Shown piece by piece: positions 26,962 to 36,111 of a stretch of 36,111 nucleotides of DNA. The notes beneath the pieces were generated by a model, which was not told the origin of the DNA, ran no database searches, and was given only the letters and a program-made list of their open reading frames with translations. The stretch comes from Candidatus Gastranaerophilales bacterium. Its GTDB lineage: Bacteria > Cyanobacteriota > Vampirovibrionia > Gastranaerophilales > Gastranaerophilaceae. The stretch is from assembly GCA_944325665.1 (NCBI GenBank), contig CALVAY010000017.1:1-36111 (forward strand). The letters are read 5' to 3'. Every line of letters begins with the position of its first letter. Within the stretch, counting starts at the first letter, position 1. Position numbers and translations under genes: made by a program.

Positions 26962-27216
26962 ATGAATTTTTTAAAGAAAAGCAGTGCACAAAGTTTGGTA
27001 GAATATGCATTAATCTTGGCCCTTGTTACGGTTATCGCAATTACAGCCCTGCAGTTCTTGGGTCAAAAAGTTAATACTGCGGTAACCGGAGTCGGTGATG
27101 ATGTTGAAAAAACAACGCAAGACGCCGCAAAAACATACTGTGAAGGTCTTGGCAGCGGTTACAGCTGGAATGAATCAACAGGTAAATGCGAAAGTTCAGG
27201 CAATACAAACCCTTAG
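26962..27216 (+). CDS. flp: Flp/Tad-type major pilin, orphan
   Basis: 84-residue prepilin. A short basic leader MNFLKKSSA precedes QSLVEYALILALVTVIAITALQFLG, the hydrophobic pilin helix with the Flp hallmark Glu-Tyr at positions 14-15. Processing is expected before Q10 or nearby; the residue at -1 would be Ala9 rather than the usual Gly. The mature C-terminus carries two Cys (C60, C76) that may form a disulfide loop, and it ends in a Ser/Gly/Asn tail. It lies about 15 kb from the Tad machine genes and is transcribed alone. Its last four bases overlap the convergent kdsB stop. Confidence 0.85.
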   Translation: MNFLKKSSAQSLVEYALILALVTVIAITALQFLGQKVNTAVTGVGDDVEKTTQDAAKTYCEGLGSGYSWNESTGKCESSGNTNP

Positions 27217-30165: not shown

Positions 30166-33100
30166 TTATATTTCGTATTCATTTTCTTTTTTTTGTGTTG
30201 TAGTAGCTTCATCATCGATTTGAATTCTTGCTGCTGCACTAACGATACCTGTTGTAGGATCTGTTGTGTTGTTAGCAATCGGAGCTACTCTGCTTACCGG
30301 TTCTAATTGACGAGGTAGGCGCATTTGGTTAATTAAGCTGTCTAAACCTAGGTCAGGATTGAATTCCGGTGGGTTTGGATTAACTTCCGGTGGAGGTTCA
30401 CAACCTGAAACAGGTTTTTCGTAAACTAGTAGGAATTTTTCCATTACACCGTTAGAGTCAAATTCGATGAAGTGTTTTTTGTATGTGTCGATTGCTTCAC
30501 CTGCTTCCGGTTGGTGTTTACCGGGAACGAAGTGGTCTGTGTATGTGAAGGAATCAGGTTGAATGAATTGGTCGAATGATTCCATAGGATCTAAGTTGAA
30601 TTGACCCCAGTTAGCAACTTCGATATATGCTCTGCCTGAAGGATCTTTTGTAACGCCTTCGATATCAGAAGCAGTTAAATCAGTGATAGCTGCTAGGAAT
30701 GTATCGTTTTTATCAAGGTTCAAGTTACCTGATTTGATTTTTGAAATTGCAAGTACGTCGTCTGCTGCGTTAATTGTAACAGTTTTGTTTGATAGTTGAT
30801 TGCTGTTATATTTAGCGTTGATTTCAATACCTGCTTTTTTGTTGTTAGCACCAACTAAGTTGATGTTTGTATCTTTATCAGCATTTGCGATAAGTTTTGT
30901 GCTGTTAACTTTAAGAACTGAACCGTCAGGAGTTGTAAAGTTTCCGCCTGCATTGATGATAGTTTTTGTAGCTTCAGGAGCAGAAGAATTTTTAGCTTTG
31001 ATAGTTACGTTCTTAAGTGCTACATCGCCTGTGGCAGTGATGTTGTTTACATGACCGTTGAATGTTGTATCATCAGCGTAAACATTGCCGTTTGTAATGT
31101 TGATGTTGTTATTGCGATTAGCGTTGAAGTCAACTCTTGTAGCGTTAAGTGATTTGTTTGTACCTGTGATATTGTTGTCTCTGCCTGCGTTTAGAACTAA
31201 GCGTTCGCTGTAACTTAAGTTAGCAAAGTTGTCAATATCAGCGTTAATATCAGCGTCATTGTTTTTAGTTGTGATTCTGATGTTTTTGCCTTTAAGAGTT
31301 GAATCTTTTGTGATGTGTGTACCTGCATTGTGAGTCAATGCTTGGTTTAGGTTGATATCACCTGCTGAAGTTAGTTTTGAGTTTTGAACAAATACTTCAC
31401 CTTTTGTGCTGTCTAATGCGTTAGCTGTGATATCGCCTTTGTTAGTTGTGATATTTGAACCGTTTTTGATTGTAACTTTACCGCCTGTTGATTCAAGAGT
31501 TATGCTGTCTTGATTTTGAGCTTGGTTTAATGTTACGTTCATATCAAGGGTATCTTGATCAACTGTTGCTTTAAAACCTCTTCTTTGAAGTTTAGCGTTG
31601 TCGATTGTTAAGTTACCGTTTGTTGAAATTTTAATACCTTCTGAGTAAGGATTTGTTTCAGATAAAGTTGTACCGTCTTTGATTGTTACGTTGTTAACCA
31701 TACCTGACGGGTGAACAAAGTTCAAACCGTTGAACACTAGTGTTGAGTCAGCAATTGTTGTGTCTGTACCATACATATTAAGAGCTTTGTTTGTTGTGTA
31801 TAGAACAGAATTGTTTTTAACGTCAATGCTGCCTGGTGTATATAGTGTTGTGTAGTTTGTTGATTCAGAGTAAGTATTGTCAAGAGTGATACCTTTGCCT
31901 GCTGCTAATTCAACTGTTTTTAGTAAATTAGCTGCACTTGCGTCGTTATCAGAGTGGTTTCTTGCTCTTAGAACTGAATCTTTAGCAGAGATTTTTCCTG
32001 CTGCTGCAACAAGTAAGTTACCTTTAGCGTGAAGATTTGTGTTTTCGATTTTAACATCTCCGCCTTTTGCAGAAACAGAAATATCACCTGCATAAGAACC
32101 GTTTACATTTGGATCGCCAAGGTTTTTGTTAGCATAAGCAGATTCAAATTTAGAATTTGTTAAGTTAACGTTTTTACCTGCTGTAACGGCAATTCTACCA
32201 CCTTTTTGAGAGTAAGTATTTTTACCGTCAGCTTTGTGGTATGTGTTATTTGTTTGTAGGTGAGTATTATCAATGTTTACGTCGTTTTGACCTTTGATGA
32301 TAATATCGCCGTATTCGTTATTAACAAGTTTGTAGCCTTTAACAATTGAGTTTTTAATGTTGATGTCGGAACCTGCTTTTTTTCCTGCGTTTTCAATTGT
32401 TATTGAACCTGATTGGATAGTTGCTCCGTCCATGTTGATATTGTTTGTAATTGAAGAATTTGAATTTGAAGCAACTTTGTGTCCGTTAATATTACCGTTT
32501 AATTGGTAATTAAAGTTAACGCCATCACCCGTAACGATTCTTACGTTAGAGAAAGATTGGTGGTGCTTAGAAGCATCTTGACCGCCGCCGTAGTTGTAAT
32601 TTAAGTTTGTTCTGATTAAAGAATCTTTGTAGATGTTAACGTTATCTGCTGCTATACCTAGAGACTTATCTACGTTAAAGTCTGTACCTTGTAAAGTAAC
32701 GGCAGCGCCGTCAGTAGTTTTTAGCGCACCATTTCTGATGAATTGTGCCTTCGTAACTAAATCAGAAGGAGTACCGTCTGATTTAATGTTAAATGTTGCT
32801 TTGTAAGCTTGTAATTGTTCAGGTGTTAAATCTTTAAGGTTTTTAGCACCTTTAAGGTCAAATGTAGTTGCAGTGAATGAGTTCAAGTCAACTTGTGAAC
32901 CTTCACCAAACATTAGACCGTTGGGGTTGATTAAAATTACTTTACCTGTACCTGAATAGCTTGCACAATCTCCGCCTACGCAAGAGTTTGTTAATTTACC
33001 GTAAATTTGTGATAAACCGCCTGTTGCAAGTACACGGTTCAATGATGTTTGCGAGTTGTTTGTAAACCCGAAGTTTACATGACCGTCTTTGCCTACGTTG

Positions 33101-33318
33101 AAGCTGTTCCAGTCGAATTGACCAACTGCACCTGCACCGCCGTTAACAACAACATCCATTCTGTTTCCGTCTGTGGTAACGGAACCGTTGATAGAGCCGT
33201 TAAGGTCGGGCATTGCTCCCGCATCAAGTGCTAAAGCAGTTGTTGTGGAGAGCGGCATGTAGCTCAAGAAACTGAACAAAATCAAAGCTGAGGCTAATTT
33301 TTTGTGCTTAAGTTTCAT
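30166..33318 (-). CDS. TpsA exoprotein, filamentous-haemagglutinin-type (two-partner secretion)
   Basis: Large secreted or surface-held beta-helix protein exported by the TpsB encoded divergently. The start at 33318 gives MKLKHKKLASALILFSFLSY, a signal peptide cleaved near ALA-LD, and AAAGGGAA lies upstream. The TPS secretion domain spans about residues 31-260: DVVVNGGAGAVGQFDWNSFNVG, LNRVLATGG, then INPNGLMFGEGSQVDLNSF with NPNG at 131-134, and Cys113/Cys118 before it. The rest to about 880 is parallel beta-helix with repeated 'ITIENA', 'VKIENT', 'VTIKNG' strands and much Asn. The end is Pro/Glu-rich with one Cys (SGCEPPPEVNPNPPEFNPD) and closes in KKENEYEI. 1050 residues; adhesin role inferred, no toxin domain seen. 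Confidence 0.9.
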   Translation of the reverse strand: MKLKHKKLASALILFSFLSYMPLSTTTALALDAGAMPDLNGSINGSVTTDGNRMDVVVNGGAGAVGQFDWNSFNVGKDGHVNFGFTNNSQTSLNRVLATGGLSQIYGKLTNSCVGGDCASYSGTGKVILINPNGLMFGEGSQVDLNSFTATTFDLKGAKNLKDLTPEQLQAYKATFNIKSDGTPSDLVTKAQFIRNGALKTTDGAAVTLQGTDFNVDKSLGIAADNVNIYKDSLIRTNLNYNYGGGQDASKHHQSFSNVRIVTGDGVNFNYQLNGNINGHKVASNSNSSITNNINMDGATIQSGSITIENAGKKAGSDINIKNSIVKGYKLVNNEYGDIIIKGQNDVNIDNTHLQTNNTYHKADGKNTYSQKGGRIAVTAGKNVNLTNSKFESAYANKNLGDPNVNGSYAGDISVSAKGGDVKIENTNLHAKGNLLVAAAGKISAKDSVLRARNHSDNDASAANLLKTVELAAGKGITLDNTYSESTNYTTLYTPGSIDVKNNSVLYTTNKALNMYGTDTTIADSTLVFNGLNFVHPSGMVNNVTIKDGTTLSETNPYSEGIKISTNGNLTIDNAKLQRRGFKATVDQDTLDMNVTLNQAQNQDSITLESTGGKVTIKNGSNITTNKGDITANALDSTKGEVFVQNSKLTSAGDINLNQALTHNAGTHITKDSTLKGKNIRITTKNNDADINADIDNFANLSYSERLVLNAGRDNNITGTNKSLNATRVDFNANRNNNINITNGNVYADDTTFNGHVNNITATGDVALKNVTIKAKNSSAPEATKTIINAGGNFTTPDGSVLKVNSTKLIANADKDTNINLVGANNKKAGIEINAKYNSNQLSNKTVTINAADDVLAISKIKSGNLNLDKNDTFLAAITDLTASDIEGVTKDPSGRAYIEVANWGQFNLDPMESFDQFIQPDSFTYTDHFVPGKHQPEAGEAIDTYKKHFIEFDSNGVMEKFLLVYEKPVSGCEPPPEVNPNPPEFNPDLGLDSLINQMRLPRQLEPVSRVAPIANNTTDPTTGIVSAAARIQIDDEATTTQKKENEYEI

Positions 33319-33679
33319 ATGTTCCCTTTCTTCTAATAGAGTTAGAAAATTTTTATACAAACACTTATAGTTTTCTAAAACTTGGCAATAAAAAAACTTG
33401 CCTTTATGTGTAGAAATGTTTTAAAAATTTACAAAAGTTTACTTTACCAAGTCCTAAAGTCTTATAATTATAAGCTAAACGGGAATATTAATCATGCATG
33501 CAAAAAAAATTATTTACATATTTTAATAGATATATTGATAAAGTTTGTTTTTTAAAATATCTTATAAAAACATCCCTTTATTAAAAATAAATAAACCATT
33601 AATATGATTTATTTATGCCGTTACCATTATATATTTATTGTGTGATATCACAGCTAAAAAAGTAAGAAAAGGAATTAAA
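33319..33679. promoter_or_regulatory. Divergent tpsA-tpsB control region (361 bp)
   Basis: No gene is visible here. For tpsA (minus) the best -10 is TATAAA at 33352-33357 with TTTTAG 17 bp upstream (33375-33380). Two AAAACTTG copies (33377 and 33393) and a GGCAA/TTGCC inverted repeat (33384-33402) lie just upstream. A perfect 14-bp palindrome CTTATAATTATAAG at 33461-33474 contains TATAAT on both strands. TTTAC recurs at 33427, 33438 and 33443. For tpsB (plus) a TATATT at 33630-33635 with a weak TTTATT is the closest candidate, followed by the palindrome at 33641. Which elements are used cannot be decided by eye. Confidence 0.5.
33641..33652. promoter_or_regulatory. Perfect palindrome TGTGATATCACA upstream of tpsB
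   Basis: A 12-bp perfect palindrome 27 bases before the tpsB ATG and just downstream of a candidate -10. It resembles half-sites of CRP (TGTGA/TCACA), but the spacer is two bases instead of six, so another dimeric regulator is more likely. Its place at the expected transcription start suits a repressor. Confidence 0.45.
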
Positions 33680-35449
33680 ATGCTGCATTGTAGATTTAAG
33701 AAGTTGGGCGCGCCGCTGTTGCTATTGTGTTTTTTGGCAACAACCAATACGGCTCTTTCTATCCCCATGGAAGCCGCCCAAAACGTCGGTAACTTTGACC
33801 CCGGTGTTATCGACCAAACTAACTTAATCCAGATGAAAGAGTATGAATACCGCACTCGTGAGAACCTTAAGGAACACGAACGCGGTCGTGAAGTTATCGA
33901 AATGGACAAAAAAATGCGCGATGAAATCGATAAACTTCCGAATAAAGAAGTTAGTTTTAAACTGAATTCGATAAAGTTTACAGGTAACACGCAATTTACT
34001 GAAGAACAGTTAATGGATTTAATTTGCGAAAAGATAGGTCAAGAAGTTACAATTAACGACCTAATCGGCTTTGCAAATATGGTTACCGAATATTACCAAC
34101 AGCGCGGTTATATCTCAACAATTGCTTATCTTCCTCCTCAAAAGGTTCAAGACGGTAACGTTGAGATTATCGTTATGGAAGGTAAATACGGTAAGGTTGA
34201 AATTGAAGGTAATAAATGGGCAAGGGACAAATTTGTTCGTGCTACATATTTAAAAGATAAAAATATTGAACCCGGAAAAGTTTTGAATATCGCTGATATT
34301 CAAGAATCTTTAAGGGAAATGAACGCTACAAGGTATATGAGAGGTCAAGTCTCTATGCAAGACAGTGAAGAATCCGCTCAATATACCGATTTCACCTTGG
34401 AGATGAAAGACAGATTTCCGATTGACTTTGACTTCCGTTTTGATAACCAAGGTCGTGATGCAGTAGGTCTAAACCGTGCGGTATTCTTTGCAGGCATGTA
34501 CAACCTAACAGGTTGGGGCGATAAATTATTGTCAACAACAACCTTAGGAAGACGTTCAGTTGGTCAAGGTGTTTTCTACTCTGTTCCAATCGGACGCCAT
34601 GAAACAAAATTGAACTTAGGTTACAGTTACAGTGGTATTACCATGGGTGAGCAATGGGCTGATTTAGACATCAGAGGTAAATCTCACAACTTCTTCGGTG
34701 GCTTATCAAGAAGATTGGTAAAAACTGAAAACTACAAGTTATACGGTGATGTTTCTTTGGATATCAGAAACACTGAAACAACTTTCGGGCCTCAAAAAAT
34801 ATCTTTGTATGATTACAGAACAAGAGCCCTAAGGGTTAACTTTACAAACATTAAAGATGACTTTAGCGGTAAATGGTTCGGAAACGTTGGTGCCAGTGTT
34901 GGTTTACCTATATTCGGAGCATCTGACGAGTATGATTACCTTGGATACAGATGGCTTCCAAGTAACAAATTTGTTAAAGTTAATGCTAATTTAGCCAGAT
35001 TGCAAATATTGCCTATGAGATCAATGGCAATTGTTCAAGTTGGCGGTCAGTGGGCTAACCATTCACTATATCCGTCTGAAAAAATGCAATTTGGTGGTAT
35101 TTCATCCGTAAGAGGTTATGAAGAAGGTTTCACAATCCGTGATTACGGTGTTACAGCATCATTGGAATTCAGGTCTCACATTCCTTTCTTAAATAGAATC
35201 TTGCCTGAAAAATTGAGATTTATAGATGATTCAATTCAATGGGCAGCCTTCTATGATGCAGGTTGGTTTGGTGATGTTGCAACAGATACATACGGTCCAA
35301 GTTACTTAATGAGTGTGGGCGGCGGTCTTATCCTAAGACTTACAAAATACTTATCAGGTAACGTTTATATAGGTGTTCCGATTGGTAATAAATTGGAAGG
35401 TGCATCTAACTGCCGTGTCCACTTTACAATTACATCAAACATCCTGTAG
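33680..35449 (+). CDS. TpsB outer-membrane transporter (ShlB/FhaC family)
   Basis: Omp85-superfamily pore that exports the TpsA exoprotein. The start at 33680 follows AAAAGGAA and gives a signal peptide (MLHCRFKKLGAPLLLLCFLATTNTALS). A charged linker at 45-88 precedes two POTRA domains: one at about 91-165 (VSFKLNSIKFTGNTQFTEEQL, YYQQRGYISTIAYLPPQ) and one at 166-245 (YGKVEIEGNKWARDKFVRA). The 16-strand barrel follows (FDFRFDNQGRDAVGLNRA onwards) with the conserved VRGY loop motif at 477-480 and a D-A-G-W-F near 525. The last residues are TITSNIL, ending in Leu where most outer-membrane barrels end in Phe or Trp. 589 residues, typical. It is divergent from tpsA instead of forming an operon. 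Confidence 0.93.
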   Translation: MLHCRFKKLGAPLLLLCFLATTNTALSIPMEAAQNVGNFDPGVIDQTNLIQMKEYEYRTRENLKEHERGREVIEMDKKMRDEIDKLPNKEVSFKLNSIKFTGNTQFTEEQLMDLICEKIGQEVTINDLIGFANMVTEYYQQRGYISTIAYLPPQKVQDGNVEIIVMEGKYGKVEIEGNKWARDKFVRATYLKDKNIEPGKVLNIADIQESLREMNATRYMRGQVSMQDSEESAQYTDFTLEMKDRFPIDFDFRFDNQGRDAVGLNRAVFFAGMYNLTGWGDKLLSTTTLGRRSVGQGVFYSVPIGRHETKLNLGYSYSGITMGEQWADLDIRGKSHNFFGGLSRRLVKTENYKLYGDVSLDIRNTETTFGPQKISLYDYRTRALRVNFTNIKDDFSGKWFGNVGASVGLPIFGASDEYDYLGYRWLPSNKFVKVNANLARLQILPMRSMAIVQVGGQWANHSLYPSEKMQFGGISSVRGYEEGFTIRDYGVTASLEFRSHIPFLNRILPEKLRFIDDSIQWAAFYDAGWFGDVATDTYGPSYLMSVGGGLILRLTKYLSGNVYIGVPIGNKLEGASNCRVHFTITSNIL

Positions 35450-35465: not shown

Positions 35466-35492
35466 AAAAGCCCTGAATTTCAGGGCTTTTTT
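35466..35492 (+). terminator. Intrinsic terminator between tpsB and the convergent gene
   Basis: AAAAGCCCTGAA / TTTCAGGGCTTTT forms a near-perfect 12-bp stem with a minimal loop, followed by T residues to 35492 on the plus strand. It begins 17 bases after the tpsB stop and four bases past its end comes the stop of the convergent gene; a shorter T-run on the minus strand suggests it also works in reverse. Confidence 0.9.
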
Positions 35493-35496
35493 GTGC

Positions 35497-36111
35497 TTAT
35501 CTTTTTCTGTAATAGCCTTTTACTTTTGTTCCGTCATCTCTTGTATACTCATCCACATAAATATAGGCACCTGAGGCAACACCTTGTTTGGCTTCATACT
35601 CTGATGGCGCAAATTTATTTTTAATTTGCGTGTCGATTATATCTTGTACGTTTAAAAATTCTTTATTTGTCATATTGTCAATTGCTTTGCTTGTAAAGAA
35701 AGTCTTGCCGTCATTTAACGGTGCAATAACTTTCTCTTTAAAATGATTGAATCCCTCTAGAGCATTAATAGCAAACGGATCTATTTTAGTAAACAGCTTG
35801 TTTTCTACAAATTTTCTCGGGTCATCAGGACTTGTAATCAGCTTGCCTTCGCGCATTTTCTGCATAACAAGTTCAGCCGCCAGATTTTTAATATATCTGT
35901 CATTTTTTGCTCCGGGGTCATTTCTTAGCATTTCTCTTAATTCAAGCCCTATTTCTCTGCCTACTCTGTTGTTCCAGTTGTCCATGTTCTCTTCCGCTTC
36001 CGGCTGCCCTTTGTTAACTTTGCCGTTTAATTCATGTCCTTTTGCAAATATTGCAGCTATTGGTACATTATATCTTTGCACCCCTATTGCCTGCATAAAA
36101 GCGTGTTTAAA
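35497..36111 (-). CDS. C-terminal part of an unknown protein, possible DUF6973-type domain
   Basis: The frame is open to the right edge, so the N-terminus is missing; 204 residues are visible. The visible start reads FKHAFMQAIGVQRYN, then AAIFAKGHELNGK, then MDNWNNRVGREIGLEL. The order 'H-A-F', '(A)xxHE' and 'M-D-x-x-N-N-x-x-G-R' recalls the DUF6973-type domain found at the ends of some secreted or polymorphic-toxin-like proteins, but I can only compare from memory. The remainder is charged and helical, with a C-terminal beta-like end AYIYVDEYTRDDGTKVKGYYRKR. It converges on tpsB across a shared terminator, so it is not in that operon. Function unknown. Confidence 0.6.
   Translation of the reverse strand, partial: FKHAFMQAIGVQRYNVPIAAIFAKGHELNGKVNKGQPEAEENMDNWNNRVGREIGLELREMLRNDPGAKNDRYIKNLAAELVMQKMREGKLITSPDDPRKFVENKLFTKIDPFAINALEGFNHFKEKVIAPLNDGKTFFTSKAIDNMTNKEFLNVQDIIDTQIKNKFAPSEYEAKQGVASGAYIYVDEYTRDDGTKVKGYYRKR

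Follow-up and report, generated by a model that had tools for sequence, protein, structure and literature searches.

The DNA considered here, i.e., 'the window', is a stretch of 36,111 nucleotides which is the entire contig C17 of a 1.65-Mb Candidatus Gastranaerophilales genome. At its right end lies the 3' part of a gene whose product, a DUF6973 protein, probably is an antibacterial effector, and it is this gene, along with its putative partner genes and a nearby phage-like structural cluster, that we describe (Table 1). The gene is partial in the window as the assembly breaks there. Its first 47 codons are found, in the same frame, on another contig of the same genome (C1), with the protein starting MANKKSLNP, and the full effector, as read across the 77-base overlap of these two separate contigs, is 251 amino acids. 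Also on C1 are the phage-like cluster and four genes for small membrane proteins. Among complete proteins, the nearest relatives (L011-L015) have 244 to 251 amino acids. Two other genomes of the genus, G007 and G008, show the gene order from t222, a gene of the cluster, through to TpsA on a single contig, and G004 does so from TerS to TpsA (L086, L088, L089); in G007 the effector frame starts later and has 210 codons. The relatives that carry a name are Candidatus Gastranaerophilales, Galligastranaerophilus and Melainabacteria, with many others filed as 'uncultured bacterium'.

Table 1. Features at the right end of the window (positions are those of the window)
Feature	Position	Strand	Remarks
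Putative effector gene, 3' part	35497..36111	-	Open reading frame of codons 48-251 plus stop (204 codons plus stop), open at contig end
Overlap with contig C1	36035..36111	.	Same 77 bases as open contig C1 (its bases 1-77), same genome
DUF6973 stretch, toxin-domain candidate	35908..36111	-	Pfam PF22322, residues 1-68 of the window part
69-amino-acid C-terminal module	35500..35706	-	Recurs in other effector-like proteins
Module first half, scaffold-like helix-turn-helix motif FFTSKAIDNMTNKEFLNVQDIIDTQIKNK	35614..35700	-	Matches scaffold-like C-ends
Module second half, end motif GAYIYVDEYTRDDGTKVKGYYRKR	35500..35571	-	Not in scaffold-like proteins
Terminator-like hairpin	35466..35490	.	Between convergent TpsB and effector gene

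A preliminary description had proposed a DUF6973-type effector based on motifs (HAF, AKGHE and MDNWNNRVGREIG), all of which are present, in that order, in the window's frame, and profile searches bear out the assignment. Pfam PF22322 matches the truncated window peptide with E 5.5e-6 and 26.4 bits, the cut-off being 27, and in a translated search of the own genome it gives 28.6 bits for the window gene, which is above that cut-off, and 49.1 bits for a paralogue on contig C7. AlphaFold2, run on L095, a 92% identical relative (71 sequences; mean pLDDT 84, pTM 0.69), models the DUF6973 part as all-helical, and across the 71 sequences the residues D46, A47, F48, H50, E74, N89, D91, N94, N95, G98 and I139 are invariant. 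The sole match of the DUF6973 profile in the PDB is BteO, a Bacteroides fragilis effector of the type VI secretion system (T6SS; 9uu0, E 3.6e-6), and structure comparison as well ranks BteO first (Z 10.2, root-mean-square deviation 3.6, 115 residues, 24% identity; the runner-up is at Z 6.8). The earlier proposal of an effector very probably holds. DUF6973 is the candidate toxin domain, probably with an enzymatic action on the cell envelope. Foldseek returned no match in BFVD at E<=0.001, the best rows including phage proteins named DUF6973, and the DUF6973 protein had no match in PHROGs or NCBIfam. In the literature we found no paper on DUF6973, nor one on BteO with B. fragilis.

The 69-amino-acid C-terminal module, here termed the 'tag', is not limited to DUF6973 proteins. 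Among 192 genomes of the order that are at least 90% complete, 115 have a module match at E<=1e-6, with a maximum of 22 per genome, the weak matches being possibly to the scaffold-like proteins considered below. In the collected proteins, 107 of 125 full-module matches end within 4 residues of the C-terminus. The Pfam domains to which the tag is joined are GH108 (E 5.6e-28), PBECR1 nuclease (7.2e-13), DUF6973 (3.9e-9) and Lipase_3 (1.5e-7), along with a transglycosylase-like match that is below its cut-off; LPD3 also occurs here, and an N-terminal MPKNY region is common to 8 of 40 other module proteins. Classes of these N-terminal parts were assigned by seeds, since single-linkage clustering merged classes through repeats. 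As is the case with polymorphic toxins, there is then a constant, putatively trafficking module along with exchangeable, candidate toxin domains, the constant part here usually being C-terminal. In a few proteins (L163, L178, L261, L063, L176, L159) the module or its end motif is found at the N-terminus. Two effector-like proteins (L155 6217-7398 and L133 11308-12324) possess the scaffold-like motif with a tail, GRWVTINGNHVF, replacing the Y.R.DGT.V.GYYR end.

The preliminary description had suggested looking for an immunity-like small gene upstream of the effector gene, and one not only exists but recurs. In the loci L092-L181 there are 107 DUF6973 genes, 103 of them with an upstream gene, and 90 of those 103 upstream genes are divergent, encode no more than 200 amino acids with at least two membrane stretches, and lie mostly 20-60 bases away; as a control, 20 of 674 other genes of these loci have such an upstream gene. 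The loci were chosen by DUF6973 or tag patterns (the best 80 of 234 relatives plus viral loci), with one viral contig present twice (L092, L175) and some loci near-duplicates, and the calling of open reading frames, the membrane test and the signal test were crude scripts. The window's effector gene has four tandem membrane-protein copies, its C7 paralogue one. Such a membrane partner is seen also with 19 of 32 lipase-type proteins, and with 10 of 12 of those with the full module. A profile of the 90 partners, run against 152 small membrane proteins, matches the lipase partners of L076, L127, L071, L051 and L112 (E 2.7e-13 to 2.5e-10), while 5 of 8 labelled lipase partners are not among the 45 best matches listed. 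Given that DUF6973 and lipases share a partner family, our guess is that DUF6973 may act on the membrane or on membrane lipids.

With lysozyme-type proteins the partners are of another kind. Of 12 transglycosylase-type proteins, 9 are preceded on the same strand by a secreted-looking protein, and so are 3 of 7 GH108-type proteins, with a divergent one for two more. The one GH108 partner tested is LprI, 'Lysozyme inhibitor' (E 1.3e-10), and two secreted partners of transglycosylase-type proteins, when tested, matched no relevant family. The type of partner would seem to depend on where the protein is likely to act, much as it does with effectors and their immunity proteins, with membrane partners going with lipase-type and DUF6973 proteins and secreted or LprI partners with lysozyme-type proteins. 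The small membrane proteins may be immunity proteins.

The other recurrent neighbor of DUF6973 genes, seen in some loci, is the phage-like structural cluster. On C1 it lies about 2 kb beyond the effector's start, on the same strand, and its PHROGs matches are to TerL (E 1.1e-39), portal/head-tail adaptor (3.7e-30), TerS (5.1e-8) and major head protein (8.5e-36). It also includes a 203-amino-acid protein, 222- and 510-amino-acid proteins (virion-type matches), an amidase/endolysin, an 82-amino-acid protein with holin matches and, at the far end, a LuxR-like regulator. The gene for the 203-amino-acid protein adjoins the capsid gene, as scaffold genes typically do, and it is by this position plus its predicted helices that the protein is named here as scaffold-like. 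Its C-end is similar to the first half of the tag (E 1e-5 for the own protein, 2e-7 in two relatives, 1.6e-11 in the viral contig L093), and the scaffold-like proteins of 14 other clusters end in (I/V)FTREQIGKMSGAEFAKNEKLIMEQLRQGLIK or variants. A profile of those 14 C-ends has 139 matches among 2479 distinct proteins: 28 scaffold-like, 88 full-module, 13 DUF6973 that lack the full module, and a remaining 10 that on inspection look to be either effectors with a different tail or divergent scaffolds. The motif is present in 18 of 18 scaffold-like open reading frames, these having been found by likeness to the 203-amino-acid protein, which may partly rest on the motif. Predicted helices coincide as well, at residues 188-192, 196-201 and 203-211 of the effector (L095 model) and 187-192, 195-200 and 202-214 of the scaffold-like protein.

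The distribution of the cluster would fit a resident of the order. TerL is found in 81 of 117 genomes that are at least 95% complete, own genome included, with one match in 76 of these and two or three, some of which are fragments, in the other 5. Among 20 fetched regions, 12 share the order LuxR-Ami-t510-MCP-scaffold-t222-TerS-GNAT-portal-TerL (MCP being the major capsid protein), 2 lack two of these ten genes, and 6 are partial or divergent; in the first 14 of these regions, and by PHROGs in the own cluster, there is as in gene transfer agents a complete head and packaging set in the chromosome. One and the same neighbor gene, for a 543-amino-acid protein, recurs in 14 of these 20 regions, with SecA present in 8, and the flanks of the one region examined (L248) are host genes. 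The 543-amino-acid protein of L248 (15404-17035), which starts MGLAASQARFLAITARK, matches no known family. Lipase-like proteins encoded directly after TerL at L245 14125-14838 and L248 14394-15047 are without tag and without membrane partner.

Inheritance appears to be vertical, as judged from one gene pair. Distances for TerL and alanyl-tRNA synthetase (AlaRS) over 30 genomes correlate with r 0.93, or 0.72 without the outgroup and 0.68 without three long branches, with 0 of 2000 permutations reaching the value in each case; one of the 30 AlaRS is split over two contigs and was entered with 546 amino acids. AlaRS was used as species marker because CarB failed, the own large carbamoyl-phosphate synthase gene (L009 11795-15019) having a match at E<=1e-50 in only 2 of 30 related genomes, own included. 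Median ratios of nonsynonymous to synonymous substitution (dN/dS), from pairs which are not independent and many of which have dS >1, are 0.016 for TerL (5 pairs), 0.074 for portal (7), 0.11 for capsid (41), 0.30 for scaffold (31) and 0.42 for DUF6973 (9). All of this fits with the cluster being a gene-transfer-agent-like, vertically inherited element of Gastranaerophilales.

Tag and cluster are in part associated, both in position and in occurrence. Cassettes of membrane protein plus effector are found inside of the cluster, between t510 and MCP, GNAT and portal, or portal and TerL, or after TerL, with others elsewhere. Of eight cluster genes, at least one is present in the fetched stretch in 40 of 88 DUF6973 loci, and at least three in 22 of 88. 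When 72 genomes are compared, matches to the module at E<=1e-12 are seen in 43 of 60 with TerL versus 4 of 12 without (p 0.018, which is optimistic as related genomes are not independent), and at E<=1e-6, where scaffolds are counted too, in 52 of 60 versus 4 of 12. This comparison covers listed handles G098 and up, leaves out 16 genomes without TerL, and counts genomes without a listed module match as untagged.

From these observations we lean, if only somewhat, toward the window's gene and its partners representing an effector with immunity, where the effector mimics a scaffold and is thereby loaded into the head of a domesticated phage. The effector would consist of an N-terminal DUF6973 toxin domain and a C-terminal tag, the latter being a copy of the helix-turn-helix with which the scaffold-like protein ends, that protein belonging to a phage-like cluster that is resident and passed on vertically. 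As the procapsid assembles, the effector would by its tag enter together with scaffold, and the particle would then release the effector, with or without DNA, into a neighboring cell. The divergently encoded small membrane proteins, of which there are four copies here, would supply immunity, and the end motif Y.R.DGT.V.GYYR, which is not in scaffolds, could serve in retention or ejection. What carries this reading, as read from genes, is the domain, the tag, the similarity of tag to scaffold-like protein, the pairing with membrane proteins, and the single-copy and vertical pattern of TerL; from these we infer the role of the 203-amino-acid protein as scaffold, and likewise packaging, toxicity, immunity, delivery and target. 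A wider proposal, which we hold as possible rather than probable, is that Gastranaerophilales have retained the head of a domesticated phage for use as a weapon, with many unrelated toxins, most of which have a partner gene, loaded via a copy of the scaffold C-end, so delivering toxin, and possibly DNA, to neighbors.

A number of points weigh against such loading. The tagged proteins often are found away from the cluster, and for 48 of 88 DUF6973 loci the stretch that was fetched has none of the eight cluster genes. In six genomes there are tagged proteins but neither TerL nor a match to this capsid gene, and the same six are without a full scaffold match, the profile matching a C-end only, in frames of 270-375 amino acids, or nothing. 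Tagged genomes without a cluster may have lost their carriers, have imported cassettes or possess another carrier. In the window's own genus the cluster is at another site and has another gene order. The scaffold-like protein matches no family in PHROGs or NCBIfam, and its model is weak (pLDDT 68.5, pTM 0.27). Outside of the window's genus, the scaffold and effector motifs of a given locus are no more alike than chance (514 of 2000 permutations reach the observed likeness, 14 loci); over 20 loci that likeness had beaten all 2000 permutations, but with the signal coming from the window's genus alone. As to the domain, a Z of about 10 may be fortuitous for a helical protein, so that it is the sequence match to BteO that carries the weight, and Foldseek alone gave no PDB match at E<=0.001.

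The cluster could instead be a small temperate phage of the ordinary kind that favors a certain site, the tagged proteins then being virion cargo, comparable to the internal proteins of T4 or to polyvalent proteins, used against the host or rival phages, and the membrane protein protecting the lysogen. The effector cassettes within the cluster would fit with this, as would a similar cluster on contigs filed as viral (L093, L174, L178, L180) and the packaging of PBECR and lysozyme proteins that is described for phages in PMC5512222. We nonetheless think it unlikely, if worth keeping in mind, given the mostly single TerL match per genome, the host-like TerL tree, the recurrence of the 543-amino-acid protein's gene and of SecA next to the cluster, the host genes that flank it in L248, and the lack of a match to the tag, at E<=1 and with one query, in 50,697 phage records. 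An alternative that we view as improbable is that the tag directs proteins to another route of secretion, with the scaffold-like protein sharing the module by descent and the effectors not loaded into capsids. That most copies lie outside of the cluster, that genomes without a detectable cluster have tagged proteins, and that the module's second half is not in scaffold-like proteins would all be expected of such a signal, but in the set of 2479 proteins the only ones to have the first half are scaffold-like or effector-like (ten of them judged so by inspection), which counts against it.

Multi-span small membrane proteins beside enzymes are typical of lysis cassettes, and the tag is found as well on lysozyme-type proteins, so membrane protein and enzyme might be supposed to form a holin/endolysin-like lysis pair of the cluster. 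The cluster already has an amidase and an 82-amino-acid holin candidate, however, and the partners are divergent, variable, tandem, and found also away from phage genes, with those of lysozyme-type proteins being secreted or LprI; a lysis pair therefore seems highly improbable to us. Scarcely credible is an effector of two-partner secretion (TPS), the link that the preliminary description had drawn from the convergent neighbor, TpsB. TpsB is present in only 11 of 88 DUF6973 loci, Pfam finds no TPS domain in the effector, and a hydrophobic N-terminal export signal, by a crude scripted test, is seen in 0 of 77 tagged DUF6973 proteins, which is to say that neither the signal peptide nor the TPS domain of a TpsA protein was found. 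An N-terminus of that kind is what the preliminary description itself had named as refuting its proposal. Nor did the missing part of the gene turn out to be a delivery domain, as had been supposed, the 47 residues supplied by C1 containing neither such a domain nor a signal peptide.

Capsid loading by scaffold mimicry, to return to the reading that we favor, has counterparts. Gene transfer agents are domesticated prophages with heads too small for their own cluster (PMC13236601), and the present element is like them in being a phage-like structural cluster in the chromosome, mostly in one copy, with a vertical pattern and under purifying selection. It differs in being known from genes alone and in its tagged, putative toxin-immunity pairs, which are no feature of gene transfer agents as described in PMC13236601. 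With phage T4, diverse internal proteins share one targeting sequence into the scaffolding core (PMC3012670); here, by contrast, the tag is at the C-terminus and resembles the end of the scaffold itself, and the tagged genes mostly lie apart from the cluster and have partners, the likeness being one of description. The P22 scaffold is anchored to coat protein by a C-terminal helix-turn-helix (PMC9965877), and foreign proteins become encapsulated when they are fused to a truncated scaffold (PMC9962691); by analogy with those fusions, which are engineered and are likened to the tag by description, the tag would take the toxin to the inside of the head. Polyvalent or MuF-type phage effectors are phage-packaged toxins (PMC5512222), as is proposed here, and PBECR1 and LPD3 are found here too. 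What differs is that here a candidate toxin domain mostly stands singly, has a partner gene, and is found in many places on host chromosomes. BteO shares the DUF6973-type domain, with T6SS delivery rather than the proposed capsid route.

If true, this would be effector delivery that is capsid-based, as distinct from tail-based tailocins, extracellular contractile injection systems and T6SS, with gene transfer coupled to killing. Gut Gastranaerophilales would have in it a gene-transfer-agent-like element, of a sort not reported in the papers found; of those that hold Gastranaerophilales and prophage, or gene transfer agent and Melainabacteria, none has both terms in its title or abstract. It would show cargo loading by scaffold-end mimicry to be natural, as otherwise is familiar from engineered P22, and it would suggest a function for DUF6973. 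With the tag as a query, the effector set can be searched for throughout the order.

Returning to the window, TpsB, which ends at 35449, is indeed the effector gene's neighbor, as previously described, and the gap between them holds a single terminator-like hairpin, with shuffles giving 0.8 such sites in that stretch. That one terminator serves both genes, as had also been claimed, is plausible, if not proven. TpsB is half of a divergent two-partner-secretion pair, i.e., by Pfam a TPS-domain exoprotein (30166-33360, minus strand) and a ShlB/FhaC-type transporter (33638-35449, plus strand), and this pair stays beside the effector gene in several genomes of the window's genus. Elsewhere in the window (26962-27216, plus strand) is the gene for an 84-amino-acid protein with a hydrophobic N-terminal stretch, which has the look of a Flp-type pilin.
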